NCBI RefSeq assembly: GCF_009799805.1
Contig: NZ_CP047050.1
Location: forward strand, 3,043,674 to 3,107,673
DNA from: Myroides phaeus
Lineage (GTDB): Bacteria; Bacteroidota; Bacteroidia; Flavobacteriales; Flavobacteriaceae
DNA length: 64,000 bases
Direction: 5' to 3'
Each line of letters opens with the position of its first letter. Position 1 is the first letter of the stretch. Below the pieces are notes generated by a model, which was not told the origin of the DNA, searched no databases, and saw only the letters and a list, made by a program, of their open reading frames with translations. Positions 4,404 through 28,401 of this stretch are shown here, one piece after another. The position numbers and the translations under genes were made by a program.

Positions 4404-7400
4404 CTATTTAGTTAATAAGCTTTCAAGCACATCTAATCGTGCTTTCAAAATATTCACTTCGTCTTGCATTTTATCTAATGCTCCTTGTTGTTCAATAGTA
4501 TGTAAATATAATTCTTCAATCTTCTCTAATTGTTGAATTGATAATTCGGTAAAATCAATTAAATACCTTCCATCTTCAGTACGTTCAATATCAGAAATCT
4601 TAGTTACTCCTGGCAAGTGATTATACTTTTCAATGAAATCTTTCACATAATCTAAAGACTTAAATTCATATGTTAAATTTAAATCAGTTGAACCTGTAAA
4701 GTACTTTTCAAATACGTAATCTGCAAACACAGAGTTTGCAGAGAAAAATTTACCTGAAACAAGCACATCTCCATCAACAGAAAGCTTAGTATTTGTTGCC
4801 TTTGAATTTGTCAACAAAGTATTTCCTCCAATTGCAACACTTCCCCTATGTGCTATTTCAGCAGCATCTTCTGTTGCAACAACTTCCGTTCCTTGATTTA
4901 ACCAAGGATTCTTGCCTTTATCTGTCACAACTTTCTCAATTTCAGTAATCACTTTCTCTTCTTTGATAATCTCGGGAAATGTATTGATTACATCTTGTGT
5001 AACAGTAATTTTTGTAGACGCCACCTTGCCTGTCTCATCTGTGTAGCTATACTCTATATAATTCTTAGCATCTCTACCTTGACTTAAACCTGTTAGCGTC
5101 TCCGCAAATTTTACATTCTCTGTATCCTTTCCATTGTTAAAGGTAAAACCTGCTTTAACTCCTGATTCATTTACTGTTTCATTTGTTAAACTCGCTACAA
5201 ACGTATTTTCCTTGATTATCTCTGTTATGTTGATCTCTTTAACACTATCTCCTTCTTTCACCACAAAAATAATATCACCCTCTTTCTCTATTACCTTAAC
5301 ATCTCCTGTTGTATTGGTAATGAACTCCTCTAAGATTGTTTTGTTATCATTGATGATTGTCTCAAAGTCATTACTAACATCTTGTGATACTGTTATAAAT
5401 CGCTCTGTTCCCAACTCGTCTATATACTTGTAGTACGTAAACTTAGCATCTGCATCTGTTACATTGGCAATAGCTCCTTTGACAAAACGATTCGCAGTGG
5501 TTACTGTCTCTGTGAAAGTAACTACATCTTTACCTGCTTCTTTAGTGTCAATACTCAATCCTTTTCCTGTAGTAGCTGTTTTAGAAACGGCTGTTACAGA
5601 TGTGTACTTCTGATTGTCTTTAACAAACTCTCCTAAGTCGATTGTCTCTGTTCCATTTTCTGTAACATAAGTAATCTTATAGTTATCTCCTTCTTTGACA
5701 ATAGAAATATCTGATCGCTTGTCTGTGATAATCTTTTCTATCTCGCGGATTACTTCTGAATCTTTGATAATCTCAGGAAACGTATTGATTACATCTTGTG
5801 TAACAGTAATTTTTGTAGACGCCGCCTTGCCTGTCTCATCTGTGTAGCTATACTCTATATAATTCTTAGCATCTCTACCTTGACTTAAACCTGTTAACGT
5901 CTCCGCAAATTTTACATTCTCTGTATCCTTTCCATTGTTAAAGGTAAAACCTGCTTTAACTCCTGATTCATTTACTGTTTCATTTGTTAAACTCGCTACA
6001 AACGTATTTTCCTTGATTATCTCTGTGATATTGATCTCTTTAACACTATCTCCTTCTTTCACCACAAAAATAATATCACCCTCTTTCTCTATTACCTTAA
6101 CATCACCTGTTGTATTGGTAATGAACTCCTCTAAGATTGTTTTGTTATCATTGATGATTGTCTCAAAGTCATTACTAACATCTTGTGATACTGTTATAAA
6201 TCGCTCTGTTCCCAACTCGTCTATATACTTGTAGTACGTAAACTTAGCATCTACATCTGTTACATTGGCAATAGCTCCTTTGACAAAACGATTCGCAGTG
6301 GTCACTGTCTCTGTGAAAGTAATTACATCTTTACCTGCTTCTTTAGTGTCAATAGTCAATCCTTTTCCTGTAGTAGCTGTTTTAGAAACGGCTGTTACAG
6401 ATGTGTACTTCTGATTGTCTTTAACAAACTCTCCTAAGTCGATTGTCTCTGTTCCATTTTCTGTAACATAAGTAATCTTATAGTTATCTCCTTCTTTGAC
6501 AATAGAAATATCTGATCGCTTGTCTGTGATAATCTTTTCTATCTCGCGGATTACTTCTGAATCTTTGATAATCTCAGGAAACGTATTGATTACATCTTGT
6601 GTAACAGTAATTTTTGTAGACGCCGCCTTACCTGTCTCATCTGTGTAGCTATACTCTATATAATTCTTAGCATCTCTACCTTGACTTAAACCTGTTAGCG
6701 TCTCCGCAAATTTTACATTCTCTGTATCCTTTCCATTGTTAAAGGTAAAACCTGCTTTAACTCCTGATTCATTTACTGTTTCATTTGTTAAACTCGCTAC
6801 AAACGTATTTTCCTTGATTATCTCTGTGATGTTAATCTCTTTAACACTATCTCCTTCTTTCACCACAAAAATAATATCACCCTCTTTCTCTATTACCTTA
6901 ACATCACCTGTTGTATTGGTAATGAACTCCTCTAAGATTGTTTTGTTATCATTGATGATTGTCTCAAAGTCATTACTAACATCTTGTGATACTGTTATAA
7001 ATCGCTCTGTTCCCAACTCGTCTATATACTTGTAGTACGTAAACTTAGCATCTGCATCTGTTACATTGGCAATAGCTCTTTTGACAAAACGATTCGCAGT
7101 GGTTACTGTCTCTGTGAAAGTAACTACATCTTTACCTGCTTCTTTAGTGTCAATACTCAATCCTTTTCCTGTAGTAGCTGTTTTAGAAACGGCTGTTACA
7201 GATGTGTACTTCTGATTGTCTTTAACAAATTCTCCTAAGTTAATCTCAACCTTATCACCATTCTCATTTAAATAATAGAACTTATTATTTTCATAAAAAA
7301 CATTACCATACTCTCCTTTTAATTGGTTGATAATTTTCGTTATGAATTCTTTTTTAGTAGTTATTTTTTCAATAAAAAAACTATTTTCTGTTAGCTCCGT

Positions 7401-8225
7401 TATAAAAAATTGATTATTAACTAATTCAGTCACAAACTTGTCACTTTTAGCAATCTCTTCAACTGCCAATTTCACTGTCTCACCATCAGAGTCAGTAATT
7501 ACTAATTCATCTTTTATCAACTTAAAAGAAACATTCTTAGTATTAAAATCTTTCCAATCAATCTCAACTTTATCACCATTATCATTTAGGTAATAGAACT
7601 TATTATTTTCATAAATAACATTACCGAATTTGTCCTTTAATTGATCAACTAAATAATTAATAACAGTTTCTGAATGAAATATATCCTCAATATGATTGAT
7701 AATTTCCTGTATTAAATGGATTTCATATTTCTGATTTACTTCATTTTCATAAACAAAAACACCTTTCTTTGTTTTATGAGGTAATAAAGTAGAAGGTAAC
7801 TGCAATTCAATTAAAGGTATAGAAACAATTGAACCATTCGAATCTTGTAAATGTAGAATTCCTTCTTTGTCAACACTCAAAGATTCATTTCTATTTACAT
7901 CAAAATCAATTGTATCATCTCCTAATCTTATCCACCCTTCCTTTCTATCGTTTCCATACTCTCCCCAATAGTAATATCCAGGCGTCAAGACATTCCCAAT
8001 ACTTGTTGTATTAAAAACTAATAATCCTATTTTAGGACTTCTCCCTTCAATCACATCACGATCAGATAAACTTTTTAGTTCAATCTGTGGAATTAACAAC
8101 CCCTTATTGGAGGAATTCAGTTCTAAAATGGACGAAATGTGAGGTTCTTTCGTCCCAATACCAACTTGTGCATAAATTGCGAAATTACACACAAAAAATA
8201 AAATTAACAGTATTTTTCTTCTCAT
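4404..8225 (-). CDS. Large repetitive surface protein: VGIGT N-terminal module, three 267-aa repeats, LPGV/coiled-coil tail
   Basis: No function is known. The 1273-residue product has a signal peptide (MRRKILLILFFVCNFAIYAQ), then the VGIGT module (VGIGTKEPH, NKGLLIPQIEL, GLLVFN). Next come about 200 residues of short alternating beta/charged segments, then three nearly identical 267-residue repeats beginning EFVKDNQKYTSVTAVSK, the last one incomplete. The C-terminal ~110 residues (ADYVFEKYF, HLPGVTKISD, QQLEKIEELYLHTIEQ and a heptad-like end) form a tail common in Bacteroidota secreted proteins and likely to trimerise. The same tail closes the collagen-like protein at 14617-18117. No T9SS sorting domain is visible. 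It is a single-gene unit with its own promoter box. It is probably a fibrous surface protein; this is inference. Confidence 0.9.
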   Translation of the reverse strand: MRRKILLILFFVCNFAIYAQVGIGTKEPHISSILELNSSNKGLLIPQIELKSLSDRDVIEGRSPKIGLLVFNTTSIGNVLTPGYYYWGEYGNDRKEGWIRLGDDTIDFDVNRNESLSVDKEGILHLQDSNGSIVSIPLIELQLPSTLLPHKTKKGVFVYENEVNQKYEIHLIQEIINHIEDIFHSETVINYLVDQLKDKFGNVIYENNKFYYLNDNGDKVEIDWKDFNTKNVSFKLIKDELVITDSDGETVKLAVEEIAKSDKFVTELVNNQFFITELTENSFFIEKITTKKEFITKIINQLKGEYGNVFYENNKFYYLNENGDKVEINLGEFVKDNQKYTSVTAVSKTATTGKGLSIDTKEAGKDVVTFTETVTTANRFVKRAIANVTDADAKFTYYKYIDELGTERFITVSQDVSNDFETIINDNKTILEEFITNTTGDVKVIEKEGDIIFVVKEGDSVKEINITEIIKENTFVASLTNETVNESGVKAGFTFNNGKDTENVKFAETLTGLSQGRDAKNYIEYSYTDETGKAASTKITVTQDVINTFPEIIKDSEVIREIEKIITDKRSDISIVKEGDNYKITYVTENGTETIDLGEFVKDNQKYTSVTAVSKTATTGKGLTIDTKEAGKDVITFTETVTTANRFVKGAIANVTDVDAKFTYYKYIDELGTERFITVSQDVSNDFETIINDNKTILEEFITNTTGDVKVIEKEGDIIFVVKEGDSVKEINITEIIKENTFVASLTNETVNESGVKAGFTFNNGKDTENVKFAETLTGLSQGRDAKNYIEYSYTDETGKAASTKITVTQDVINTFPEIIKDSEVIREIEKIITDKRSDISIVKEGDNYKITYVTENGTETIDLGEFVKDNQKYTSVTAVSKTATTGKGLSIDTKEAGKDVVTFTETVTTANRFVKGAIANVTDADAKFTYYKYIDELGTERFITVSQDVSNDFETIINDNKTILEEFITNTTGDVKVIEKEGDIIFVVKEGDSVKEINITEIIKENTFVASLTNETVNESGVKAGFTFNNGKDTENVKFAETLTGLSQGRDAKNYIEYSYTDETGKVASTKITVTQDVINTFPEIIKEEKVITEIEKVVTDKGKNPWLNQGTEVVATEDAAEIAHRGSVAIGGNTLLTNSKATNTKLSVDGDVLVSGKFFSANSVFADYVFEKYFTGSTDLNLTYEFKSLDYVKDFIEKYNHLPGVTKISDIERTEDGRYLIDFTELSIQQLEKIEELYLHTIEQQGALDKMQDEVNILKARLDVLESLLTK
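4960..7238 (-). repeat. Tandem array of 801-bp units (2.8 copies) inside the surface protein gene
   Basis: The period is exactly 801 bp (267 codons). Identical landmarks recur at 5134, 5935 and 6736, and the unit start (EFVKDNQKY) lies near 7237, 6436 and 5635. The copies differ at only a few bases. The copy nearest the 3' end loses similarity over its last ~40 codons. Such near-identity points to recent duplication or gene conversion and allows copy number to change by recombination. Confidence 0.93.
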
Positions 8226-8273
8226 ATTAGTTAGTATATTAATTTATAGACAATATTATTGATTATTCTTAAA

Positions 8274-8281
8274 CAAAAATA
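8274..8281 (-). promoter_or_regulatory. Bacteroidota -7 box for the 4404-8225 gene
   Basis: The minus strand reads TATTTTTG, matching TAnnTTTG, about 50 bp before the ATG at 8225. It lies in the ~370-bp AT-rich gap up to the FMN reductase gene, where I see no gene and no other clear element. Confidence 0.45.
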
Positions 8282-8574
8282 CAAATTATAACATCTAACA
8301 AAATACTTGCAATTATTTTTACGAAAAACCTAATAGTCAAATAGTTAAAACACATAAAACTTATTAAATAATTACCTAAAACACTATTTCATAAAGATAA
8401 GCTCATTATTTTTTAGTAAAAACACAACATTATATCTAATAAAAAAACACTTTTTAACGCAACTAAATGCAACAGAACGTCAAGTTTAACATTTACGAAT
8501 CTTTTTGTTATTAAAAATAAAAACAAGCTCCACTTTTCTTGTCATAGATTAAGTTTAAAATAAAAACATCCTCC

Positions 8575-8582
8575 TTACATTT
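8575..8582 (+). promoter_or_regulatory. Bacteroidota -7 box that places the FMN reductase start
   Basis: TACATTTG matches TAnnTTTG. A frame starting at the TTG at 8581 overlaps this box, so translation must begin further downstream, at the ATG at 8599 or 8620. Confidence 0.5.
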
Positions 8583-8619
8583 GCCCTATCAATACAATAT
8601 GAATCACAAAAAAATAAAA

Positions 8620-9147: not shown

Positions 9148-9171
9148 ATAAAAACACTATTTAAAACTAAA

Positions 9172-9207
9172 AAAGCCTAAAATGAGTCATTCATTTTAGG
9201 CTTTTTT
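9172..9207. terminator. Bidirectional intrinsic terminator
   Basis: Stem AAAGCCTAAAATGA / TCATTTTAGGCTTT with a 5-base loop and T-rich flanks. It lies between the FMN reductase gene and the convergent small-gene pair, and abuts the stop codon of the latter. Confidence 0.85.
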
Positions 9208-14616: not shown

Positions 14617-17600
14617 CTATAAATTATTAAGTAACTCTTCCATTTTCTGCATTCTCAATTCTAAATTATTGATATGCTCTTGTTGTTTTTTGTTCACTTC
14701 ATCTTGTTCGATAATGTGTAAGTACAACTCCTCAATTTTCTCTAATTGTTCAATAACCAATTTAGAGTAATCTACAATGTATCCGTTTGCTGCTTTGTTC
14801 AAGTCACCGATTGGCGTAACACCAGGTAAATGGTGATTTTCTTTTACAAAGTTTTTCACATACTCTAAATCTTTGAAGTCATAGTCGTATTTAATAGCCG
14901 ACTCTCCTAAGAAATATTTCTCGAATACGTAATCCGCATAAGTTGATGTTTGAGAGTAGATAGTTCCGTTTACGAAAGTATCACCTTCTACGTATAACTT
15001 GGCGTTTGTAGCAATATTTCCTAATTTTGCAGGTACATTATCTGCTCCAATTGCTACATTTCCATATTGATAGATATCATCTTCTGTTGTTTCTGGGCGA
15101 TCATTTGGTGCTTTTTGTTTATTCCAAGCTCCATTTTTAAACCCAGGTTTAATACTTAGAGTACCATCTGTCAACAATTTAAAATCTGTATCTACAGGCT
15201 TAACCACACCCGGAGCTTCAAAAACTGCAGTATTAATAGAGATTACATAAGGATTCGATGCTGTTCCCACATCATTCATAGTACCATTTTTACCATTAAT
15301 TTTCAATGGCAATACAACAGTAGTAACTCCACCTACTCCTGCTGGTCCTTGAGCTCCTGTTACTCCAGTATCTCCTTTTGCTCCAGTATCTCCTTTTTCA
15401 CCATCTTTTCCATTTGCTCCTGCAGGTCCTGTTGCTCCGGTATCTCCTTTTGCTCCTTGTGGTCCAACTGGTCCTTGGATTCCTTGATCTCCTTTTGAAA
15501 CAATATGTTCAGTTCCTTCTCCATCAATAATGATTACACTTCCGTCTTCGCCTGGTTTAGCTGTAACAGATAATCCCTTATCTCCTTGGATTCCTTGGTC
15601 TCCTGTTTCTCCTTTTGGTCCTTGTGGTCCAACTGGTCCTTGGATTCCTTGATCTCCTTTTGAAACAATATGTTCAGTTCCTTCTCCATCAATAATGATT
15701 ACACTTCCGTCTTCGCCTGGTTTAGCTGTAACAGATAATCCCTTATCTCCTTGGATTCCTTGGTCTCCTGTTTCTCCTTTTGGTCCTTGTGGTCCAACTG
15801 GTCCTTGGATTCCTTGATCTCCTTTTGCACCAGCTTCTCCATTGTCTCCATTGATTTTTGTCCAACTATTAGTCGTCTCATCATAGATCCAAACACCACT
15901 ATCATTGTGAACAACTGTTACTCCTGCACCTGGTCCTCCTGGTGTTCCAGGTTCCCCTGGTTCTCCATCTTTACCTGCTTGTGATTCTGATTTGAAACCA
16001 GTATCTCCTTTGTCTCCTTTATCTCCTTTTTCACCATCTTCTCCATTGATTTTTACCCATGTACCATCTGGTTGAACAACCCAAACTCCGTCATTATTGG
16101 TTACAATAGTTACACCTTCTCCTGGTCCTCCTGGAGTACCTGGTTTTCCTGGCATACCTTCGGCTCCTGGTTCACCTGGTTTTCCTTCCATATTCTGACC
16201 TTTAAAGCCAGTATCTCCTTTGTCTCCTTTATCTCCTTTATCTCCTTTTTCACCATCTTCTCCATTGATTTTTACCCATGTACCATCTGGTTGAACAACC
16301 CAAACTCCGTCATTATTGGTTACAATAGTTACACCTTCTCCTGGTCCTCCTGGAGTACCTGGTTTTCCTGGCATACCTTCGGCTCCTGGTTCACCTGGTT
16401 TTCCTTCCATATTCTGACCTTTAAAGCCAGTATCTCCTTTATCTCCTTTTTCACCATCTTCTCCTTTTTCACCATCTTCTCCATTGATTTTTACCCATGT
16501 ACCATCTGGTTGAACAACCCAAACTCCGTCATTATTGGTTACAATAGTTACACCTTCTCCTGGTCCTCCTGGAGTACCTGGTTTTCCTGGCATACCTTCG
16601 GCTCCTGGTTCACCTGGTTTTCCTTCCATATTCTGACCTTTAAAGCCAGTATCTCCTTTGTCTCCTTTATCTCCTTTATCTCCTTTTGCACCAGCTTCTC
16701 CATTGTCTCCATTGATATTCGTCCAAGTATTGGTCGTTTCATCATAGATCCAAACACCTTCATTATTGTGAACAACTGTTACTCCTGCACCTGGTCCTCC
16801 TGGTGTTCCTGGTTTTCCTGGTTCTCCGTCTTTACCTGGTTGTGATTCTGATTTGAAACCAGTATCTCCTTTGTCTCCTTTTGGTCCTTTTAAACCGTCT
16901 AACTGTTCTTCTGTAAAGTCCTCATAAACAAATGAATACCCATCATCTCCTTTGTCTCCTTTTGGACCATTGATATTTGTCCAAGTATTAGTCGTTTCAT
17001 CATAGATCCAAACACCACTATCGTTATGAACAATAGTTACGCCTGCACCCGGTCCTCCTGGAGTACCTGGTTTTCCTGGTTTTCCTGACTGACCTGGTTG
17101 TGATTCTGAATTATACCCTGAATCTCCTTTGTCTCCCTTATCTCCTTTTGGACCATTGATTTTTGTCCAAGTATTGGTCGTTTCATCATAGATCCAAACA
17201 CCATCATTATTGTGAACAATAGTCACTCCTTCTCCTGGTCCTCCTGGTGTTCCTGGTGTTCCTGGTTCTCCGTCTTTACCTGCTTGTGATTCTGATTTGA
17301 AACCAGTATCTCCTTTGTCTCCCTTCTCTCCTTTTGGACCATTGATATTTGTCCAAGTATTAGTCGTTTCATCATAGATCCAAACACCATCGTTATTGTG
17401 AACGATAGTTACGCCTGCACCTGGTCCTCCTGGAGTACCTGGTTTCCCTGGTTTTCCTGACTGACCTGGTTGTGATTCTGAATTATACCCTGAATCTCCT
17501 TTTGGTCCTTTTAAACCATCTAATTGTTCTTGAGTAAAGTCTTCATATAAGAACGAATCTCCTTTATCTCCTTTTGGACCAGCTAATAAATCAACTTTAA

Positions 17601-18117: not shown

Positions 18118-18152
18118 GGCGATTATTTTCTAACTATTATCTTTATATTTTT

Positions 18153-19046
18153 TTAATCAAAGTAGCGTCTAAATTTGATAGAAACCCCATTTTGATTTAC
18201 CCTAAATCCTTCTTTAAAACTTGAGTCATTACTCACAGTAAATCGAAACTTTACCTTTTTTTCCAGATCTGTAATTCTTATAAAAAACATATAGGTATAT
18301 CCTTGAATACTTCCTCCACGTGTATGTTTTGATATAATCGTAGCACTTTGAGGAGGCACCAATTCTGATCCATTCACATCCGTTATCCCACATTTTTTAG
18401 AGTATAATCCTAAATAACCATGGCGATTACCATTAGGGTCTTTTATAAAAGGGTTATGAAAATCCGGATTTGAATCTTCACTCATATTTCCTCTATCATT
18501 CCAACCATCAATGGACACCTCTACTTTATAATACCCTTTAGGCATTGTAAACACCTCTCCATAATTATCATACTCATAATGTAAAGTAACTCCGCGCTCT
18601 ATATCTGTCGTTGAATAATCCGTTTTTTCTTTTTTAAACCTTATGTAATTAGTGGCACTTAAATTCGTATAAGGAATAAGTACTTCTTGTGTTGCCTCAG
18701 CTGTTCCCCCCATCATTCTAATGGTAGTCATTCTATCAACCCCTTCATTATTTAAAAGTTGATTCCACTTTTTACCATCCCAAACATAAATACCTTTCCT
18801 TGCAATATTATCCTCGTGATTTCCTCCCATAACGTTGTACACTAAAGTACCGACTTGAGGATCAACGATAGGGTTTTGGTTATCATCAAACACTTCAAAA
18901 ACATGCTTTGGCAATAAAATTCCTTTTGTATCAGAACTAACCTCCAACACTGCTGATTTATGAGGCTTATGTGTCCCTATACCAACCTGACTCCAAGCTG
19001 AAAAGCAACTAATCAATAGTCCTACTCTTACTATATTTTTCATCAT
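18153..19046 (-). CDS. VGIGT-module secreted protein with C-terminal beta-rich domain, 297 aa
   Basis: Unknown function. Signal peptide, then the shared module (QVGIGTHKPHKSAVLEVSS, KGILLPK, GTLVYN, GIYVWDGKKW) in the first ~110 residues. The remaining ~180 residues begin with GYYKVEVSIDGW and end FRFTVSNDSSF..VSIKFRRYFD; the spacing of strands recalls a C1q/TNF-type jelly roll, but this is only a visual likeness. The ATG overlaps the stop of the gene before it by 4 bp, and the collagen-like gene follows 35 bp later, so the four genes are surely co-transcribed. It could be a head or cap subunit for the collagen-like fibre. Confidence 0.85.
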   Translation of the reverse strand: MMKNIVRVGLLISCFSAWSQVGIGTHKPHKSAVLEVSSDTKGILLPKHVFEVFDDNQNPIVDPQVGTLVYNVMGGNHEDNIARKGIYVWDGKKWNQLLNNEGVDRMTTIRMMGGTAEATQEVLIPYTNLSATNYIRFKKEKTDYSTTDIERGVTLHYEYDNYGEVFTMPKGYYKVEVSIDGWNDRGNMSEDSNPDFHNPFIKDPNGNRHGYLGLYSKKCGITDVNGSELVPPQSATIISKHTRGGSIQGYTYMFFIRITDLEKKVKFRFTVSNDSSFKEGFRVNQNGVSIKFRRYFD

Positions 19047-19942
19047 AATATTGATTTTTCAATGTTTACATATGTATCAAGTATAATGATATTTCCTTTT
19101 TTAAAAGTTGTCCCTTCCACTGCCTGTAAAATTAATTTCACATTACTAATTTGATTTCCCCCTTCTTTTTCAGGTATAGTTAATCCAAAATAAAAAGAAG
19201 CAGAAAACTCTCTTGACAATGGTCTGAAGCTCCCATTTTCCTTCACTGCAAAAGGCACTAAAGCATCTGCAAATGCATTATTTAAAACAACAGCTGTGTC
19301 AACTCTAACTTCACTTCTAAAATTTATTAAATGCGCTCTATAAGACTGGTTTGTATCTCCAAGCGTATTCTCTATATTAAGCATATTACCTTCATCTTCA
19401 ATTTTTCCTCTTAAGTAAAAAGCAATCAAATAATTTCCAGGTCGCAACATCAAATCTTTTAAACCATCTGCTCTATCATAAAGAAGTACATCACCATAAG
19501 TATTATCAAAATCAAATTCTTTTAAAGGAATTTCTATTTCGTACCGTGGTTCTTCTTCTGGTCTTTGCCACGTACTATTCTGTACTTTAATTACCGCATT
19601 TTCAATAGAACTTCCTCTATTTACAATAGCACTCCACATACCATTTTTAAACATATAAACTCCAGGAATTATAACTTTACTATTATTGTAAACTAACATT
19701 CCTTCTGCTGGATTCTTAATTGGTTCTTCTTTGTTTAATACGTCTTCTATTTCCACTACAGGTAATACAAATCCTTTTGCTTTATCACCTTGCACAATAC
19801 TTTCGTCAATTGTAGACATATCCAAAATAACAGCAGGCGAAACTACTCCATGATGATTAGTGGCTGTTTGAGCAATTAATGTATTTATACTAATCAACAT
19901 TAACACTGATGCTATACTATATTTTAAAATATTTGTTTTCAT
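19043..19942 (-). CDS. VGIGT-like secreted protein with C-terminal beta-rich domain, 299 aa
   Basis: Unknown function. Signal peptide (SINTLIAQ end), then a diverged copy of the shared module: the VGIGT motif is replaced by ATNHHGVVSPAVILDM, but AKGFVLPVVEI, GMLVYNN and PGVYMFKNGMW are kept. The C-terminal ~180 residues contain RPGNYLIAFYLRG and end GNIIILDTYVNI, again a beta-sandwich-like pattern similar to its neighbours. It follows the 19948 gene after 5 bp and overlaps the next by 4 bp. Second gene of the operon. Confidence 0.83.
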   Translation of the reverse strand: MKTNILKYSIASVLMLISINTLIAQTATNHHGVVSPAVILDMSTIDESIVQGDKAKGFVLPVVEIEDVLNKEEPIKNPAEGMLVYNNSKVIIPGVYMFKNGMWSAIVNRGSSIENAVIKVQNSTWQRPEEEPRYEIEIPLKEFDFDNTYGDVLLYDRADGLKDLMLRPGNYLIAFYLRGKIEDEGNMLNIENTLGDTNQSYRAHLINFRSEVRVDTAVVLNNAFADALVPFAVKENGSFRPLSREFSASFYFGLTIPEKEGGNQISNVKLILQAVEGTTFKKGNIIILDTYVNIEKSIL

Positions 19943-19947
19943 TCCTC

Positions 19948-20814
19948 CTATTTTAATTTTGTTATTTTCAAGTATGAATTTTTTGCTACTAATCGATACT
20001 TAGCTGTATAATAAGTACTGTTTGATGCTTTTCCTACTCCTAAACTAAAATTATGTAACACCTCTTTTCCCTTATCTTTTTTTAAGTCCATTATATTCGA
20101 AAAAACTACTAAATGTTCTTCTCCTTCAGGAGAAAAAGTAGAGCGTTCTACTCTATAAGTTGCTGCTATTCTCTGATTAAGAGAAGTAACATAATTCTCA
20201 TTAAAATTTGTGAAATATGCCATATTATAATAAGTCCTATTAGCTTCTTTTGGCGCTATAAAAACAGCGAAAAACTCAATCAAATAGACTCCTGAAGAAA
20301 ATCCTAATTGAATCTCATTAGACTTCCCAGCATCTAAAACAGATAAACTACTAATATGCCCATCATTCAATATTTTAAATAAAAAATCATTTTGATTCAG
20401 TAGATACATTTGTCCATTTTCTGTTACAGGTATTTCAAATGAGCTTGCTGTTTTATCTACTAATTCAAACCCTATAATCGCTGTTTTAGGCAATCTATCA
20501 AAGTTTGCCAGTTGCTCCCAAGCTCCTTTTTCTCCATTTAGTTTATTATTCCAAAAAGACAACGTACTTTCTTCTTTATCATGTACATCAATAACTACAA
20601 GTCCATCTGGCATATCCTTTTGTTCACCAACAATTGGATTATTTTCATACCTGTTCTTTATATCCACACGCGGTAATAAAACCCCTTTATCTTTTACATC
20701 AAACTCAGCTGTAGCATTTGCACTAACTCCCCTTTTATTAACCCCTATTTGACTATATCCAGTGGTAGCTATTAAAGCTAAACACGTTACTAAAAAAAAT
20801 CTACCTATTCTCAT
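19948..20814 (-). CDS. VGIGT-like secreted protein with C-terminal beta-rich domain, first gene of operon, 288 aa
   Basis: Unknown function. I start it at the ATG at 20814, which gives a clean signal peptide (MRIGRFFLVTCLALIATTGY, then SQ). The longest frame would put 20 extra residues in front of it. The module reads QIGVNKRGVSANATAEFDV, DKGVLLPRVDI and a diverged LVV stretch. The C-terminal domain has SSGVYLIEFFAVFI and ends AKYRLVAKNSYLKITKL, resembling the C-terminal parts of the next two genes. The three are probably paralogues that arose by duplication. Confidence 0.82.
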   Translation of the reverse strand: MRIGRFFLVTCLALIATTGYSQIGVNKRGVSANATAEFDVKDKGVLLPRVDIKNRYENNPIVGEQKDMPDGLVVIDVHDKEESTLSFWNNKLNGEKGAWEQLANFDRLPKTAIIGFELVDKTASSFEIPVTENGQMYLLNQNDFLFKILNDGHISSLSVLDAGKSNEIQLGFSSGVYLIEFFAVFIAPKEANRTYYNMAYFTNFNENYVTSLNQRIAATYRVERSTFSPEGEEHLVVFSNIMDLKKDKGKEVLHNFSLGVGKASNSTYYTAKYRLVAKNSYLKITKLK

Positions 20815-21189
20815 AACCTTTGCCTTGTATATCATTAACAATATAATTTTATCTGTTTTTAAACAAAACAACATTGTTTTTTAACCCATTTAATAAAGAT
20901 AATTTATTACTTTAAATTAATTCACTTTTTGCGAATCTATTTTTAACCTTTTTTTAAAAAAATTAAACTTATCAAACATTTTTTATGTTCTATTACCTAT
21001 TTACAAAAACCGTGACAAAACATGATGCTCAATATTAAAATTCTCTAATATTGTAATACAAAAACCTCAAAAGCACGTATAAACAACACAAAAACAAACA
21101 CTTAATGCTTTATTTTTATTTAAAAAAAATAACTGATATTTTTTTACGCATTACATATATTTGCCTCAATTCTATTTTTTTTATACAAA
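20815..21189. other. Non-coding gap upstream of the collagen-like operon
   Basis: About 375 bp of very AT-rich DNA between the start of the 20814 gene and the terminator of the next operon. It should hold the promoter of the four-gene operon, but I could not find a clean TAnnTTTG box facing left. A TATATTTG on the plus strand near 21157 faces away from it and has no gene to serve. Confidence 0.5.
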
Positions 21190-21230: not shown

Positions 21231-23201
21231 TTAAAAAGAAGACTGATCCATTTTAACAATTATAAACTCACTTCGCCTATTCGCTTGGTGTTCTTCTTTC
21301 GTACAAGGAACGTTGTTTGCACATTGGTTTACCAACTGCGTTTCTCCATATCCCTTTGCACTTATTCTTGTTTCTTCAATACCTTGACTTATCATCCAAG
21401 CCCTTGTAGATTGTGCTCTGCGTTCAGACAACTTCATGTTGTAAGCATCGTTTCCTCTGCTGTCTGTATGCGCTCTAACATCTATCGTAATCTGTGGATA
21501 TAACTTCAATACCTCAACTACTTTTGCCAACTCAACAGCTGCATCTGGTCTAATAGAATGCTTGTCAAAATCAAAATAAATAGGATCTAATTTTAACTTA
21601 GCAAACAAGTCGTCATCCATCCCTATTTTCTCTTCCACAGGGTCTAATCCAATATTAACTTCTTTAGACACATTAAACTCTTTCCCTAACAAAGTCGAAA
21701 CCTCAGCGGTAAGGAAGTCATCAGCACTTGCTTTTAATCTAAATTTGCGATTACACTCCACTGCTTCTGTCGCAAAATGTCCTTCTTCATCCGTAGTAAT
21801 TACTCCCAATTCTTTGTAATTTGCATCAAATAATACAACTGTCGCGTTAACAATTGGCAACTTAGTACTGTTGTCAAAAACAACTCCTTCTATCTTTTGT
21901 ATGCAATCAACTACTTGAAAAAAGTAAATATCATCATTACCTACACCCCCTTCTCGGTTAGAACTAACAAATCCCTTGCGGTTCTTATCATTGATAAAAA
22001 AGGCAAAATCATCTGAAGAACTATTGATAGGTGCACCTACGCTCACTACTTTTCCAAATGTACCATCCACATTGATTTTTGCCATATAGACATCTAAACC
22101 ACCTAAACCAGGGCGACCATCTGATGAGAAATACAAATAGTTGTCTTTAGAAATAAAAGGAAACGTCTCTCGGCCTTCCGTGTTAATGCGATTACCCACA
22201 TTTTCTGGTGTTCCAAAAGAAGCATCTTCATAGATTGCTACCCTATAAATATCAGACTCCCCTATTGTTCCTGTTCGATCAGAAGCAAAGTATAACCACT
22301 TTTCATCAGGAGACAAAGCTGGGTGAGCTGTATTAAAATCATCTGAATTAAAAGGCAATTCAACCGCTTCATTCCACTGTCCGCTTTCATTCAAAGTAGC
22401 CTTGTACAACTTCAATAAAATGGCGTAATCACTGTTGTAAACCTTTTTATTCTTTTTAAAATTGTTACGCGTGAAGTACATCGTTTTGCCATCTTTTGTA
22501 AAAATAGCAGAAGCCTCATTTACCTTTGTTTTTGCCGACTTATCAAACAACTCGGGTTCACTAAAACTACCATCTGAAGCAATAGTGGACATATACAAAC
22601 TTGTAACTGCCTCGTTAGTCCATTTGTGAATCTTTCCACCATGTTCTGTTTCACGGGCAGACGTAAATACCAATTTATCCCCTAAAATAGCAGCCCCATA
22701 ATCTGAATACTCACTATTAATAGGCAAAGACTCCAAGTCGTAACGCTGAATCATAGCGTTGATTTCATCCAGATAGGTATCTTTCTTTTCTTCAAACAAA
22801 ATACCTCTACTATCGCTTTTTTCAAGCTTTGCAAACAAGCCTAAATACTCATCTGCCTTTTCGTAATTCTCAACTCCTCTCAACGTCTGAGCGTAGCGAT
22901 AATACGATTCGGAAGGCAGTTTAGCATCCTCTTGCTTTGCCAGGGTAAACAACTCCTCATACCACTTATGAGCTGTTTTTAAATCTCCCTTAAAGTAATA
23001 GGCCTCTGCCAACTTAGATAAGGTATTGATACTCTTATATCCCTTATCCACAATTTTCTCGTAGATTTCAATCGCATTGACATATTCATAGTGGTCAAAA
23101 CTCTTATCTGCTTTCTTCTCTTTAACACCTTGAGCAAAACCACCCATGGTAACCAAAAACACAGAGGCAATTGAAAAAAACCTAATCACATTCTTTTTCA
23201 T
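21231..23201 (-). CDS. PorE-like OmpA family protein (TPR, PD40 propeller, CRD-like, OmpA domains)
   Basis: Predicted outer-membrane/peptidoglycan linker. Domain order over 656 residues: signal peptide ending GGFAQ; TPR-like helices (about 30-150); PD40/WD40-like propeller blades with HPALSPDEKWLYFASDR and FPFISKDNYLYFSSDG (160-415); a carboxypeptidase-regulatory-like domain from EGVVFDNSTKLPIVNATV (435-520); and an OmpA peptidoglycan-binding domain with YFDFDKHSIRPDA and AHTDSRGNDAYN..LSERRA (540-650). This is the PorE architecture of the T9SS, but PorE is a lipoprotein and no lipobox cysteine is seen here. It is last in the operon, 16 bp after porP/sprF, which fits a role in fixing a type B T9SS substrate to the cell wall. 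Confidence 0.92.
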   Translation of the reverse strand: MKKNVIRFFSIASVFLVTMGGFAQGVKEKKADKSFDHYEYVNAIEIYEKIVDKGYKSINTLSKLAEAYYFKGDLKTAHKWYEELFTLAKQEDAKLPSESYYRYAQTLRGVENYEKADEYLGLFAKLEKSDSRGILFEEKKDTYLDEINAMIQRYDLESLPINSEYSDYGAAILGDKLVFTSARETEHGGKIHKWTNEAVTSLYMSTIASDGSFSEPELFDKSAKTKVNEASAIFTKDGKTMYFTRNNFKKNKKVYNSDYAILLKLYKATLNESGQWNEAVELPFNSDDFNTAHPALSPDEKWLYFASDRTGTIGESDIYRVAIYEDASFGTPENVGNRINTEGRETFPFISKDNYLYFSSDGRPGLGGLDVYMAKINVDGTFGKVVSVGAPINSSSDDFAFFINDKNRKGFVSSNREGGVGNDDIYFFQVVDCIQKIEGVVFDNSTKLPIVNATVVLFDANYKELGVITTDEEGHFATEAVECNRKFRLKASADDFLTAEVSTLLGKEFNVSKEVNIGLDPVEEKIGMDDDLFAKLKLDPIYFDFDKHSIRPDAAVELAKVVEVLKLYPQITIDVRAHTDSRGNDAYNMKLSERRAQSTRAWMISQGIEETRISAKGYGETQLVNQCANNVPCTKEEHQANRRSEFIIVKMDQSSF

Positions 23202-23217
23202 ATCACATCGTTTAGTA

Positions 23218-24162
23218 TTAGAAGAATCTCGGTGTATTCAATTTTGTCTTGTGATTAAAAATATCAAACTTCAAGAAAAACTCGTGTGAACCAGAATTGT
23301 AATTAGCCAACTTAGTAGTATCAGCATCGTAAGAATAACCAATCATTAAGTTTGGATTAACTTGAAACCCGACCAAACCACTCACTGAAGCATCCCATCG
23401 GTAAGCAGCTCCCACAGTAAACTTGTCTATAAACAAGAAATTAGCTGTTAAGTCCACTTGCAATGGCGCTCCCGATACAGCCTTTGCTAAAAAAGCAGGC
23501 TTAAACTTCAAGCTTGGATTTAACTCAAACACATACCCTCCCATTACATAGAAGTGTGCTTTCTGACTCATCACGGTAATCTCATTATCGTCATAGCGAT
23601 CAGTTGTCAAGAAATTAGGCACAGACAATCCCACATACGCTTTGTCAGAATACAAGTACAAACCAGCCCCAACATTCGGGTTAAATTTATTCTTGATATT
23701 GTTTGCCAACTCCGCAGCAGAAGGATCATAAGCGTGTAGTTTATCGTACTCCACATCAAGTAAATTAGCAGTAGCTTTCACACCAAATGCCAATTTAAAA
23801 TCGCGGTTTACGTCTATAGTGTATGACATGTCTAACGAGATATTATTCTCTGTCATCACCCCTAATTTATCATTGGTAAACGTACCTCCAATTCCCAATT
23901 TAGAATCGCCTATCGGACTATGAGCAGATAGATGAGCTGTTTTAGGAGCCCCATCCAGTCCTACCCATTGTGCGCGATAATGTCCAAAAAGAGAAAGCGC
24001 CCCTGTAGACCCCGCATAAGCAGGGTTTACGTTAGAGGGATTGTACATATACTGAGTATATTGAGGATCTTGTTGACCAAAAGTTTGTTGGGCTGTAGCT
24101 AAACATACCAAGCACAAGCCCACTTTTTTTAGTATTGAATTGTAATTCATCTGTCTTTTCAT
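23218..24162 (-). CDS. PorP/SprF family type IX secretion system membrane protein
   Basis: Outer-membrane beta-barrel protein of the PorP/SprF family, which in Flavobacterium is needed to secrete or anchor one partner protein with a type B sorting domain. Signature: signal peptide ending FGQ, then QDPQYTQYMYNPSNVNPAYAG, GHYRAQWVGLDGAPKT and SPIGDSKLGIGG, followed by repeating beta strands to the C-terminus. Its ATG overlaps the stop of the preceding type B substrate gene by one base (TAATG), a strong sign of translational coupling and partnership. 314 residues is normal. An internal ATG four codons on is also possible. Confidence 0.95.
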   Translation of the reverse strand: MKRQMNYNSILKKVGLCLVCLATAQQTFGQQDPQYTQYMYNPSNVNPAYAGSTGALSLFGHYRAQWVGLDGAPKTAHLSAHSPIGDSKLGIGGTFTNDKLGVMTENNISLDMSYTIDVNRDFKLAFGVKATANLLDVEYDKLHAYDPSAAELANNIKNKFNPNVGAGLYLYSDKAYVGLSVPNFLTTDRYDDNEITVMSQKAHFYVMGGYVFELNPSLKFKPAFLAKAVSGAPLQVDLTANFLFIDKFTVGAAYRWDASVSGLVGFQVNPNLMIGYSYDADTTKLANYNSGSHEFFLKFDIFNHKTKLNTPRFF

Positions 24163-25418
24163 TAATTAGATTCTAAGTGTAGGTATCCTGTTTTTTTAAT
24201 TCTACGAGAAGCCCCTGTAGATTTATCCGGATACTCATACGTTACCACAAAGTAATAAGTACCCGATGGCAACTTCTCATTTTTATTCATTGTTACCCTA
24301 CCCTCAGAATAGCCTTTAAAGACATTTCCATTACTGTTATAATTCGTTGTTTCGTAAACTTTAACTCCCCAACGATTATATATTTCCACGCGGTTATCTG
24401 GATATTTGTTCAAGTTATCAATGCGGAAAAACTCATTGTGTCCTGTACCATTTACAGATACAAAGTTGTATATCACAACCTCGCCATCCAACATCCAATC
24501 CGTCTTAACAGTAGCTAAGGTAAAGTACCCCACATCTTCTACTGCAATAGGTGTTGTAACTGTTTGATTAGCCTCATCCACAATTCCTCCTTCATCTACC
24601 CACATCTTATCCTTTTCGTTCCAGCGAACAATGCGTAGGTTTTTATCTGCTTCTAACAACAATTCAGCCGGTGTAGTACGCTTGTCATAACTCAAAGTAA
24701 CAATCGCATTCTCTTGCTTATTGTCCCTCTTTTTTATAATCCAGTACTCCATATTATCCACTAATTGAATAACCCCTGCCTTTTTTGTACGTTCATCAAA
24801 AAATGGCTTATCCTTGTAAATATACTCTGCAGAGAATATATCTTTATTTGACTTAACCATTGACGTTCCCGCTGGGCGATACATTCCTTGGTCGCCAATA
24901 GGAAAAGTAAAATCGCTTTTACCCTCCTTTTCAACAGCTCCTTCCAGGTGACTCTTATCCGATGGATTAGCAGCTTCTGCTTTATCTAAAAAAGTAACGG
25001 CTCCTTTGTTTTTATCAACCTTTCCAATACCATTTAAAAAATCAGCCTTACCCGCCACAATCATATTGTTTTGAATATCAAAAGCCATCTTCTCTGTAGC
25101 ATTGTCTAGCACTAAATCGTTAAACTTAGTCAGGCTATCACCCACTATTACCTGTGTAGTCTTACCCATCAGAATAGTTTTCCCTTCTGGTGTAATCCCC
25201 TTATAATCAAAACTCCCTTCATTAGTCAGGTGTTTATGCACCATAAAAGTTCCGTTATTTTTAAAATCCGCTTTAGCCTTATTTTCAAAATCATAATGCG
25301 TAGAAAGCAGTGAGCCAGCCTTTACATATAGCTGCCCTTTATTCACTGTTTGCGCCATCGTACCTAACGGAGTAAGAGATAGAACTACTAAGAGTGTGTT
25401 ATAATTAATTTTCATCAT
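24162..25418 (-). CDS. Secreted protein with type B T9SS (gliding-motility-associated) C-terminal domain, 418 aa
   Basis: Surface protein exported by the type IX system. Signal peptide, then a repetitive beta region with many GK/TFxxxKxLTNEGSFDY-like strands (residues 30-300), and a C-terminal type B sorting domain of the CHU_C/gliding-motility type: VSVNGTGHNEFFRI, YPDNRVEIYNRWGVKVYE and LPSGTYYFVVTY. The next gene, overlapping by one base, is its likely PorP/SprF partner. The arrangement recalls the sprB operon of Flavobacterium, but this protein is short and not an SprB orthologue. Probably the anchor of the surface structure encoded by the operon; this is inference. Confidence 0.92.
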   Translation of the reverse strand: MMKINYNTLLVVLSLTPLGTMAQTVNKGQLYVKAGSLLSTHYDFENKAKADFKNNGTFMVHKHLTNEGSFDYKGITPEGKTILMGKTTQVIVGDSLTKFNDLVLDNATEKMAFDIQNNMIVAGKADFLNGIGKVDKNKGAVTFLDKAEAANPSDKSHLEGAVEKEGKSDFTFPIGDQGMYRPAGTSMVKSNKDIFSAEYIYKDKPFFDERTKKAGVIQLVDNMEYWIIKKRDNKQENAIVTLSYDKRTTPAELLLEADKNLRIVRWNEKDKMWVDEGGIVDEANQTVTTPIAVEDVGYFTLATVKTDWMLDGEVVIYNFVSVNGTGHNEFFRIDNLNKYPDNRVEIYNRWGVKVYETTNYNSNGNVFKGYSEGRVTMNKNEKLPSGTYYFVVTYEYPDKSTGASRRIKKTGYLHLESN

Positions 25419-25437
25419 GTCGCTCTTTTATAGTTCA

Positions 25438-26076
25438 CTATTTTACTACAAACACGATGTTCATAATTGAATAAGCACTCCCCGTACCAATAACTTTATA
25501 CTTCATTAAACCCTTCTCATCAATTACGATTTCATCAAATGTTGTCTTATCGTAATCAGTTACATAATAGTACAAATCCGTTGCGTTTGGGAAATGAGGA
25601 ATACCACCTTTATCTGCCATAGGAGCACCTGTACTTCCTACAGCATTCCCTTTTAAACCAAACTGCTTTGTGTACTCAGCATATAAGTCTTTCTCTTCTA
25701 GTTTATCAGCCGTTACTGTTGACGTATCAAAAACAATAGAAGGCATATAGAAAAATTTCACAGCCTTATTATCTGTTGTTACCATTTGTTGCCACTTCGT
25801 ACCATCGTTATAATAAAACCCAGGCACTACATCATTAACTTTACTGGTATTATAAACAGTCATACCTGCTACGTGTTCGTTTAAAGGTGTAGCGTCTGTT
25901 GTTTTTTCTAATGCTAAACGAGGTAATAAAAGACCTTTATTTGTAGCATCTAACTCTAAAACTGCATTTGCATTAACATCTGGAGTATTATTAGCTCCCG
26001 CCACTCCAATTTTAGTTTGTGCAAATCCTAAAGTCGTTAGTAAAGTAAATGCAAATCCTAAATATATTTTTTTCAT
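25438..26076 (-). CDS. VGIGT-module secreted protein, 212 aa
   Basis: Unknown function. Signal peptide (MKKIYLGFAFTLLTTLGFAQ), then the shared module with TKIGVAGANN, VLELDATNKGLLLPRLAL, GMTVYN and PGFYYNDGTKWQQM. The C-terminal ~100 residues (IVFDTSTVTADKLEEKDLY to IMNIVFVVK) are a small beta-rich domain with no recognised family. It lies 19 bp before the type B substrate gene and 99 bp after the 26176 gene, all on one strand. It is the smallest member of the module family here. Confidence 0.87.
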   Translation of the reverse strand: MKKIYLGFAFTLLTTLGFAQTKIGVAGANNTPDVNANAVLELDATNKGLLLPRLALEKTTDATPLNEHVAGMTVYNTSKVNDVVPGFYYNDGTKWQQMVTTDNKAVKFFYMPSIVFDTSTVTADKLEEKDLYAEYTKQFGLKGNAVGSTGAPMADKGGIPHFPNATDLYYYVTDYDKTTFDEIVIDEKGLMKYKVIGTGSAYSIMNIVFVVK

Positions 26077-26100
26077 AATGTCATTTTGAGTTTAAGTGTA

Positions 26101-26130
26101 AGGAAGTACAAGTGGTGAGTTGTACTTCCT
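26101..26130. promoter_or_regulatory. Hairpin between two genes of the large operon
   Basis: Perfect 11-bp arms AGGAAGTACAA and TTGTACTTCCT around an 8-base loop, in the 99-bp gap between the 28401-26176 and 26076-25438 genes. The T run is on the plus-strand side, so it is not a good terminator for the operon transcript. It could stabilise or mark a processing point in the mRNA, or mark the end of an antisense transcript. Confidence 0.6.
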
Positions 26131-26175
26131 TTTTTTAATTATCTTGTTGTTTTGAGTTTGAAGTTGTCACTAAGG

Positions 26176-28401
26176 CTATTTTACCAAATCACCTGTGTAT
26201 TCAACTACTACGTCATAGTCTCCTGTAGGAACAACTATGAATTGTGATCCCATACCGATGTTAAATTCAACTTTAGTACCTAATAATTTAATATCAGTAG
26301 CGCTATTAGCAACAACAATATCTCCTTTCATTAATTTAATTGAAAGTATTCCTTTAATAGCCAAATCATCAGTTGCTTTAGGTAAATCAACCCCTGTTGT
26401 TCTTGCAGAATTAACCCAAGTACCAGCAACTTCTTTACCTGCTTTAGTTGTTCCTTTAGCTAAATACACATAACGACCGTTATACACATTTCCTGTTAAA
26501 ACAATATCTCCTACATTTGTAATATTATCTCCTAAAGCTTTTTTAACAACATCTTTATACTTGTTAATCACCTTAGTTAACATAGAAAGAGGTAAGTCAA
26601 TCTCCTTATTTTCATATTTTTTAGTTGTATCATTATAAACAACTTGATAGAAAACGTGTGGCGATTTATCAGTTACAGCTGAATTTTTATCATCACCATC
26701 GTGGTCACCATAATACACGTTACCACCAGCGTTTAATACATTTGTGATTGCATTTTTGATATCCTCATTATTCTCAATAGACGATAGAATATCTCCTGTC
26801 ATATTGATATAATCAGGCTGCCCTGCTTCATTGTCGTATTTATAAAAGATCTCTCCTTTTTTAACGTTTACATCTACTGGCGCATTTACTTTAGCATAAT
26901 CTTTTAACTTACCATCAACCTCAGCTTCAGTTCTTGTAATTGCTGTTTTAGTCTCAGCTCCTTTTACTAAATCATTTAAGTTAATCGTTTTATACTCATT
27001 TGTAGCTGCATCATAATATTGGAATACCCAAACTTTTTCTTTTCCTTGATTTGGGTCACTTGGATCTTTATCAACCTCAATTTCTTTATAGATAACATTC
27101 CCTTCAGAGAACTGAGTGATGTATTGTAAATACTCCTCTACTGTAGTAAACGTTTTATCCTTACCATCAACTTGTATAGTAATATTTCCTGGAGTAGTTA
27201 AGATTTCTTCAATATTATTGATTACTCCCCCTACAACATCAATATGAATTGCACCAGCTGGCACTGCAGTCCACTTAGTTACATCTACTTCTCCTCCTCC
27301 ATTAATGTAAGACTCAGACAAATAATACTGCTTATTGTTGTAAGTAACAATTGAAGTTTTAGTCTCAGCAGCTGCTACTAACTCATTTAAGTTAATTGTT
27401 TTATACGCTTTTGTAGTTGCATCATAATATTGGAATGCCCAAATTTTCTTATTTGCATCATTAGGATCTTCAATTTGTGTATAGATAACATTTCCTTCAG
27501 AGAACTGAGTGATGTATTGTAAATACTCTTCTACTGTAGTAAACGTTTTATCCTTACCATCAACTTGTATAGTAATATTAGGGTTAGACTCTAAAATCTC
27601 TTTGATGTTATTTACAACAACTTCTTTTACGTCAATTGTAATAGCGCCTGGTGTTTTTGCATTTAATCCCTTGATAATATCAGCTTCAGTAGCCTTAGGA
27701 TCTATTTTTAATGCCTCTTCAATTGCTTTTGTAATTGCAGCTTCATTAAAATATACATAGCCTGTTACTTTACCATTATTATCTTTAAGCTCAATAAAGA
27801 AAGTATTTGTCTCAATTCCGCGAATCATATTCGTTAAATTGATTTTCTCAGTCTTATATGTTTTACTTGTTACATCATAAGTTACATAAGACATTTCTCC
27901 AGTCTTAGGATCATATACAATTGTAGTATGACTTTCTCCAGCTACTGGTTTACCATCGCTATCTACATTTCCTGGGTTAGTAGGAACGATATAGTTAATC
28001 AAGTTTTTAAGGTTAGTTACGTCAGCTCCAATTTTAGTGATGTTATCACCTAAATTTTCAATTGCTTTATCTAACTCTGATTTACTAACTATTCTATTCC
28101 ATTTAGCACCATCCCAGTAGTAGAAACCTTTAGGTAATGTTATTATGTTATTATCTGTTGCATCTTTTACTTCATTTACTTCATTTATATTGTAAACCAA
28201 AAGACTTTCTACTTGACTACCTTCTATTGGTTTATAAATTTTTATGTCTGTCAATTCAACTCTCGGAATCAATAAACCTTTAGTGGTAGAGAAAATCTCA
28301 AGTTCAGCTGAAACAGCAGGATCAGGTGTCCCGATACCTACCTGTGCGTTAGCGAAATAAACTGATCCTAACAATGCTGCGATTAACGTAATTTTTTTCA
28401 T
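26176..28401 (-). CDS. VGIGT-module secreted repeat protein, 741 aa
   Basis: Unknown function. Signal peptide (MKKITLIAALLGSVYFANAQ), shared module (VGIGTPDPAVSAELEI, TKGLLIPRVEL, SLLVYN, GFYYWDGAKWNRI), then a long acidic region built of repeating units that each carry VIYxxxED-, WxFQYYDAxT-, YKTINLNDLV- and NITIQVDGKDKTFTTVEEY-like segments. These resemble the repeat texture of the 4404-8225 protein. The C-terminal ~70 residues (GILSIKLMKGDIVVANSATD to DVVVEYTGDLVK) form a separate beta-rich domain. No sorting domain is seen. It is 35 bp after the giant gene and clearly in its operon. Confidence 0.87.
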   Translation of the reverse strand: MKKITLIAALLGSVYFANAQVGIGTPDPAVSAELEIFSTTKGLLIPRVELTDIKIYKPIEGSQVESLLVYNINEVNEVKDATDNNIITLPKGFYYWDGAKWNRIVSKSELDKAIENLGDNITKIGADVTNLKNLINYIVPTNPGNVDSDGKPVAGESHTTIVYDPKTGEMSYVTYDVTSKTYKTEKINLTNMIRGIETNTFFIELKDNNGKVTGYVYFNEAAITKAIEEALKIDPKATEADIIKGLNAKTPGAITIDVKEVVVNNIKEILESNPNITIQVDGKDKTFTTVEEYLQYITQFSEGNVIYTQIEDPNDANKKIWAFQYYDATTKAYKTINLNELVAAAETKTSIVTYNNKQYYLSESYINGGGEVDVTKWTAVPAGAIHIDVVGGVINNIEEILTTPGNITIQVDGKDKTFTTVEEYLQYITQFSEGNVIYKEIEVDKDPSDPNQGKEKVWVFQYYDAATNEYKTINLNDLVKGAETKTAITRTEAEVDGKLKDYAKVNAPVDVNVKKGEIFYKYDNEAGQPDYINMTGDILSSIENNEDIKNAITNVLNAGGNVYYGDHDGDDKNSAVTDKSPHVFYQVVYNDTTKKYENKEIDLPLSMLTKVINKYKDVVKKALGDNITNVGDIVLTGNVYNGRYVYLAKGTTKAGKEVAGTWVNSARTTGVDLPKATDDLAIKGILSIKLMKGDIVVANSATDIKLLGTKVEFNIGMGSQFIVVPTGDYDVVVEYTGDLVK
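27091..27580 (-). repeat. Internal duplication in the 741-aa protein gene
   Basis: About 95 bp around the segment encoding NITIQVDGKDKTFTTVEEYL are almost identical at 27091-27187 and 27484-27580, 393 bp (131 codons) apart. The units around them are less alike, suggesting an older duplication with partial conversion. Confidence 0.8.

Follow-up and report, generated by a model that had tools for sequence, protein, structure and literature searches.

A Myroides phaeus locus with T9SS anchor genes and conserved C-terminal protein ends as a candidate static surface station

A stretch of 64,000 nucleotides from Myroides phaeus (the window) encodes secreted proteins with a common N-terminal module next to T9SS anchoring genes, which raises the question of which end of these proteins is linked to the anchor. 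A first-pass annotation regarded the module as a docking part for a surface structure, followed by completely divergent C-terminal regions. In Flavobacteriia, a C-terminal domain of ~105 residues (hereafter cdom) marks the link to the cell-surface anchor better than the N-terminal module does.

The N-terminal module and its carriers

The seven secreted ORFs assigned to the module family are all present on the minus strand and contain one alignable module; their signal-peptide-like starts were judged by eye. A profile built from the seven modules recovers each of them, with E-values from 2.2e-27 to 7.7e-40. A wider profile of 66 rows, which holds three of the seven, likewise recovers them all, with 8e-10 and 2e-8 for the two lowest-scoring members. 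Prediction of the module alone gives a single unit (pLDDT 91.9, pTM 0.74). The VGIGT motif, expected directly after the signal cut, is found there in four proteins and is replaced in the other three by QTATN (19043–19942), QIGVN (19948–20814), and QTKIGV (25438–26076). The family is larger than the proposed seven members: the 3.1-Mb genome has 21 module matches at E≤1e-5 and 27 at E≤1. It corresponds to the newer Pfam entry PF26696, which is precomputed on a relative 100% identical to the 297-aa protein of the window (18153–19046, PF26696.1) and on all 120 listed relatives, out of 591, of the 212-aa protein (25438–26076), the N-terminal module being the common part. As far as could be seen, the earlier remark that no role is assigned to the module still holds.

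The regions following the module do not diverge completely, and some members have C-terminal parts in common. The 1273-aa protein (4404–8225), which contains long internal repeats, has the same YVFEKYF..HLPGVT..coiled-coil-like C-terminal end (by eye) as the 1166-aa collagen-like protein (14617–18117). In addition, the C-terminal domain of the 212-aa protein is found in much larger paralogues. Gene 4404–8225 does not belong to the single cluster in which it had been placed, as other genes on both strands lie between. The gene at 14617–18117 contains DNA repeats, and its product matches PF01391 (E 5e-42) and harbors 15 Gly-X-Y runs of at least six, comprising 127 triplets. These collagen runs, together with heptads seen by eye, are only indirect pointers to a possible trimeric fibre.

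Anchor genes and gene order

The anchor genes occupy the centre of the locus, all on the minus strand. The small type B substrate (24162–25418, 418 aa) ends in a CHU_C sorting domain at about 24177–24476, which matches PF13585 above the cut-off (E 4e-22) and TIGR04131 with 29.6 bits, below the cut-off of 35. It is adjoined by a PorP/SprF-family carrier (23218–24162, PF11751 E 3e-90) and a PorE-like protein with TPR, PD40, CarboxypepD_reg, and OmpA domains (21231–23201), which scores 354 bits against the PorE model, below the curated cut-off of 600. On one side of the anchor genes lie the 212-aa protein, composed of the module (25771–26076, alignment and profile match) and cdom (25441–25758, ending in MNIVFVVK), a 741-aa protein with the module at about 28078–28401 (26176–28401), and a giant secreted protein (28437–34952). 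The giant has 2171 residues from its GTG, an internal MKNKTTFLLW being the likelier start, and terminates in the tail NCSVKSNLNVTHKIKI. It has no recognised CTD, and Pfam gave nothing at E≤1 for its last 671 residues. On the other side, two module proteins with short C-terminal parts (19948–20814 and 19043–19942) precede the 297-aa and collagen-like proteins. The first of them could also start at 20874, but its signal peptide is better when translation begins at 20814. The locus products other than the type B, PorP, and PorE-like proteins have signal peptides, and no known T9SS sorting domain was found in them.

In the Myroides/Paenimyroides-type loci that were read whole, the genes keep one order: first a giant, then a module protein, a small module protein, and the type B CTD protein. 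PorP and PorE genes come next in most of the 24 loci of this type, seven of which lack PorP in the stretch read.

Two other proteins reportedly also come ahead of a type B protein with its carrier in the gliding adhesin operon SprC-SprD-SprB-SprF, said to have been described by Rhodes in 2011. In the gliding system, the twin Cys links SprF to the track, and the Cys-X-Cys of the carrier C-tail is required for this attachment, according to section 6 of PMC12635249. The SprF-like copy used for comparison has CNC, whereas Cys is absent from the last 40 residues of the window PorP, and in this respect the locus differs from the SprF/SprB gliding adhesin system. Because the carrier tail has no Cys, the station is expected to be static. 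PMC12618676 describes a substrate of a PorE-containing operon of Flavobacterium johnsoniae as static.

The closest known systems are the PorE-PorP-PG1035 complex of Porphyromonas gingivalis (PMC9143113) and the PorE/SprF-like/type B operons of F. johnsoniae, such as Fjoh_3952-3951-3950 (PMC12618676). Like the window, they encode a type B CTD protein, a PorP-family carrier, and a PorE-like protein in a row. The window differs in that its type B protein is small and is preceded by large proteins without a known CTD and with conserved C-terminal ends. Partners of this large kind are not mentioned for either system in the accessible parts of PMC9143113 and PMC12618676. The anchor composed of PorE, PorP, and type B protein is known, and as far as we could find, neither of the two C-terminal ends has been reported.

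Linkage of the C-terminal ends to the anchor

Within 41 genomes, 13 of 14 cdom matches lie at most 7 kb from PorP (start to start), against ~2% expected by position. Outside this genome, the distance is at most 5.4 kb for 9/9 matches. The type B gene is located between cdom and PorP in all 13 PorP-near cases, each read as sequence. Among 46 cdom loci, a type B CTD gene follows directly downstream in 28 and occurs anywhere in the stretch in 31. Moreover, in each of the 10 sampled genera that carry cdom, its gene is grouped with type B and PorP genes. In Bacteroidales, linkage of cdom to PorP was not seen.

The position of cdom is strictly C-terminal: its end lies 0–9 residues from the C-terminus in 50/50 proteins of 146–2787 aa and 0–1 residue from it in 55/55 giant relatives, and the giants with cdom in other genera reach 3,900 aa. 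The predicted cdom structure contains strands and is beta-rich, with a pLDDT of 80–97 per ten-residue block. A structural search with this model gave no significant match, and no Pfam entry common to the carriers covers cdom. The second conserved end belongs to the large partner at cdom loci, which often has a terminal tail resembling N-P-x-[IL]-x-x-[KR]. This pattern, which was picked after the loci were seen, many of them close relatives, occurs in 35/46 cdom loci and 5/40 control stretches, and its strict N-P form in 16/46 and 0/40, respectively.

A proposed static station and its alternatives

We propose, with a probability of roughly one half, that the locus 21231–34952, extended by 14617–20814, builds a static surface station for fibres or adhesins, in which fibrous proteins are held by their C-terminal ends and the VGIGT module is distal. 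Judging from domains and gene order, and as in PorE-PorP-PG1035, T9SS would export the small type B protein, the PorP carrier would clamp it, and PorE would tie PorP to the cell wall. The other products may then join the station through cdom, carried by the 212-aa protein here and by giants in other genera, and, in the case of the large partner, through its N-[P..]-x-[IL]-x-x-[KR] tail. They would bind physically at the station, and the cdom proteins may either travel along with the type B protein or possess a novel kind of sorting signal. At the far end, the N-terminal VGIGT/KGLLxPR module could form an oligomerising, perhaps trimeric, fibre start or cap instead of a dock.

T9SS cargo is currently recognised by known C-terminal domains. 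More tentatively, we suggest that in Bacteroidota the two unrecognised C-terminal tags surface and hold giant proteins without known sorting domains via type B/PorP stations, forming a split-adhesin branch of T9SS with the sorting signal on a separate small adaptor. If so, T9SS cargo lists leave out a large number of giant adhesin-like proteins in Flavobacteriia and Bacteroidales, PG1035 and other small type B proteins of unknown function could be seen as adaptors for other proteins, and the focus shifts away from the N-terminal module towards the C-terminal ends.

The earlier proposal of a surface structure holds insofar as several surface-type proteins adjoin the T9SS anchoring genes; its docking part fares poorly. 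A module docking onto the type B substrate, PorP, or PorE, with the variable C-terminal parts as exposed business ends, would agree with 11 of 22 module matches in this genome lying at most 12 kb from PorP, and with type B/PorP genes in 5/17 module-bearing stretches of other genomes against 0/40 controls (Fisher p 0.0015). However, in other genomes of the family only 1/100 module matches lies within 6 kb of a listed PorP, 2/100 within 12 kb, and 6/100 within 20 kb, as measured against 150 of 270 PorP matches and with distances counted from the N-terminal end of genes that are sometimes long. In addition, none of the 55 cdom giants matched the module profile (precomputed PF26696 is on two of them), and viral contigs encode the module (VGIGT/KGFLLPRM in 12 IMG/VR contigs). 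The viral copies are mostly C-terminal, 2–19 residues from the C-terminus in 10/14 occurrences, whereas the window copies are N-terminal; only two of the viral proteins have a signal-peptide-like start by eye. We therefore consider docking by the module unlikely. Since the module is rarely near PorP, cdom is always near it outside this genome, and viral contigs share the module, the module appears to be a fibre part in wide use, also by phage tails, and the C-terminal end looks like the anchor-linked part.

That part could itself be a new class of T9SS sorting domain, making cdom-ending proteins direct substrates that use the neighbouring PorP, a reading we regard as possible though somewhat doubtful. 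It is consistent with a predicted beta-rich domain of ~105 residues at the strict C-terminus of signal-peptide proteins of very unequal length, with its adjoining PorP in Flavobacteriia, and with SprA in all 11 Bacteroidales genomes with cdom loci checked. SprA also occurs in every module-positive (not cdom) genome of two samples (22/22 and 36/36), a weak comparison, as 21 of 22 SprA-negative genomes are from one family and 85/89 genomes of the second sample are SprA-positive. Against this reading, the type B protein, as a second product, already requires PorP, and in Bacteroidales PorP is not found close to the cdom genes. Moreover, hhalign showed no profile similarity of cdom to type A or type B CTDs (probabilities 0.5 and 0.3), a weak test given only 11 for type A versus type B. 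Generic clustering, with unrelated surface proteins gathered at one locus and the module as a common bacteroidete filler domain, appears very unlikely. Module genes are indeed common, occur in tandem, and often lie far from PorP, and among the 24 Myroides/Paenimyroides-type loci only that of M. phaeus was seen to have three short module genes in a block; yet cdom keeps its company of type B and PorP genes across genera, and the tail protein recurs.

The exported N-terminal module

The first-pass annotation had described seven secreted proteins with a common N-terminal VGIGT module on the minus strand of this region (3043674-3107673 of a single-contig 3.1 Mb genome), and both ORF reading and profile search bear this out. 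The module begins with the Q that follows the apparent signal cut (7/7 proteins) and reaches a conserved W roughly 75 residues downstream. Predicted alone from a 66-sequence alignment, it forms a single compact unit (pLDDT 91.9, pTM 0.74), in which the chain is mostly extended with a few strands. No model in our library copy of Pfam, in NCBIfam or in PHROGs covers it. In precomputed annotation, PF26696.1 is assigned to all 120 listed of the 591 relatives of the 212-aa protein (25438-26076, minus strand; best named match among those listed from Myroides phaeus, 93% identity) and to 6/6 relatives of the 297-aa protein (18153-19046), including the window's own copy. Since the N-module is what these two families have in common, PF26696 is very probably the module.

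The genome contains 21 module matches at E<=1e-5, spread over about nine places, and 27/41 genomes of the family have the module at E<=1e-3. It starts at most 60 residues from the N-terminus in 214/235 modules pooled from fetched loci, a biased pool because the loci (L-numbers, stretches of genomes or contigs) were fetched largely by the module. Several other arrangements were observed. In L001:7095-12145, a 191-aa protein consists of two tandem modules, the second recognized by eye, and the last ~60 residues of the adjoining 1492-aa protein resemble the module core, representing a C-terminal module in a cellular protein. Three tandem genes in L006:6462-8804 (250-277 aa) encode proteins whose mature part opens VGIGT-like but is devoid of the KGLLxPR part. 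In other genera (L024, L028, L034, L116, and L119), short genes for module proteins (250-316 aa) occur in groups of two to four, adjacent to a single large protein whose end resembles a type A CTD.

The C-terminal domain and its linkage to PorP genes

Five module proteins of the genome (212, 824, 975, 1769, and 2787 aa) have in common a C-terminal domain of ~105 aa, here named cdom (25441-25758 in the 212-aa protein), which ends in (M/I)N(I/V)VFVVK or a variant. In the fetched loci, cdom is located 0-9 residues from the C-terminus in 50/50 proteins; 49 of them carry the module and the remaining one is cut by the stretch end, a pairing that says little because the loci were fetched via the module. 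A length-limited protein search yielded 55 giants (1339-3936 aa) related to the cdom protein of L176. In each of the 55, cdom stops 0-1 residue short of the C-terminus, and 0/55 match the module profile; cdom proteins therefore have an exchangeable N-terminus and a constant C-terminus. PF26696 is found on 2/55 in the precomputed table, and no Pfam entry is common to the giants.

A genome-wide profile search gave 14 cdom matches in 10 of the 41 family genomes, 13 of which lie within 7 kb of a listed PorP gene (150 of 270 PorP matches are listed), start to start. Outside this genome, cdom lies within 5.4 kb of a listed PorP in 9/9 cases vs 1/100 for the module within 6 kb (Fisher p 2e-12); the module count rises to 2/100 within 12 kb and 6/100 within 20 kb. 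Some of the genes are long and have the module at their far end, the N-terminal one, which lengthens the measured distance. The first-pass annotation rightly suspected a surface assembly, but the N-terminal module to which it gave the linking role is probably the wrong end for the anchor link.

The large partner of the window, a 2171-aa giant (28437..34952, minus strand), yielded no CTD with Pfam on its last 671 aa or with our own type A and type B profiles. Its last residues, SNLNVTHKIKI, fit the tail pattern N-[PKRLH]-x-[ILMV]-x-x-[KR]. Proteins of 300 aa or more with this ending occur in 35/46 cdom loci vs 5/40 control stretches (5/318 proteins), and with its strict N-P form in 16/46 vs 0 of 40. 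The contrast is descriptive, as the pattern was written once the loci had been viewed and many of them are closely related.

The cdom gene, type B gene, and PorP occur together in 9/9 loci read from other genomes (L022, L023, and L173-L179). In L173-L178 the type B gene directly follows the cdom gene. Of these six loci, L176 alone contains a complete cdom protein (2346 aa, without the module); the others show truncated ones, of which 276 to 1594 aa can be read. The cdom and type B genes of L179 are separated by a gene for a tail protein, and PorE comes after PorP. Among 46 cdom stretches, type B genes are present in 31 and PorP in 23. All 13 Bacteroidales cdom loci (Dysgonomonas, Prevotella, and relatives) are without PorP in the stretch, and seven of them have a tail protein; SprA is present in 14/14 Bacteroidales genomes checked, 11 of which have cdom loci. 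Seven Myroides-type loci (L055, L057, L058, L060, L062, L064, and L065) show a second form, composed of giant, module, module plus cdom, and type B genes; neither PorP nor PorE lies in the stretch fetched. By analogy, they may resemble the orphan type B substrates of F. johnsoniae, which use a common distant carrier (PMC12618676). PorP is also missing from the stretches L098, L007 (its PorP sits in the neighbouring L006), and L011 of this genome. In the latter (L011:325-12333), the 2787-aa module and cdom protein, 107 kb from a listed PorP and with none nearby, is located between two 517-aa tail proteins, each ending in VNPN[IL]R.

The anchor genes and a possible assembly

The neighbours of the module genes, all on the minus strand, encode a small type B CTD protein (24162..25418, PF13585), a PorP/SprF carrier (23218..24162, PF11751), and a PorE-like TPR-PD40-CarboxypepD-OmpA protein (21231..23201, from domain matches). 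The anchor is of a known kind: in P. gingivalis the three equivalent proteins assemble into one complex whose type B member lies at the surface (PMC9143113). For the C-terminal ends, no published description was found in the open-access literature searched. A PorE-containing operon of F. johnsoniae has a static substrate (PMC12618676), and a C-terminal Cys-X-Cys is required in SprF, which carries the moving adhesin (PMC12635249). Unlike SprF, the window PorP and the four others beside small type B proteins lack Cys throughout the last 40 residues; a sixth copy, in L003, has CNC there. The station is predicted to be static because the window PorP lacks the C-tail Cys needed by the SprF of the moving adhesin.

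By steps known elsewhere, the type B protein would be exported and clamped on PorP, with PorE reaching the peptidoglycan. The cdom and the tail would either attach to this station or leave the cell together with the type B protein, and the VGIGT module would lie distal. Gene order and the strict C-terminal position of cdom are shown by the sequences. None of the seven module proteins has a known CTD by Pfam or NCBIfam. A less probable alternative is that cdom itself is a sorting domain. Its profile shows no likeness to type A or type B CTDs, but the test is weak, since the type A-type B control scored low too. That cdom binds the station or is carried out by the type B protein is the reading we prefer. 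Divergent from the giant gene, 36151-37419 encodes a possible local regulator of LuxR type whose membrane part resembles 7TMR-DISM (match below cut-off).

The module in viral contigs and collagen-like proteins

The module is also encoded on twelve viral contigs. Among six of their module proteins compared with PHROGs, those of L128 and L132 match tail families and four have no match; the L123 protein is encoded close to a baseplate hub gene, the L122 protein behind a virion structural gene. The viral module is 2-19 residues from the C-terminus in 10/14 occurrences, which include the near-copies L125/L126 and L128/L129. The proteins of L121 and L127 start like signal peptides, so not every contig in this set need be purely viral. 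Since the module is N-terminal in exported cellular proteins and C-terminal in viral structural proteins, we infer that a fibre cap or trimer starter would fit better than a specific dock.

The 1166-aa protein (14617-18117) contains 15 collagen runs with 127 triplets (Pfam E 5e-42). Collagen helices require three chains, which holds for these runs only if such helices form. The gene carries long DNA repeats at 15435-17502 (periods of 165, 186, and 219 bases, 85-98% match), and recombination between them could change its length.
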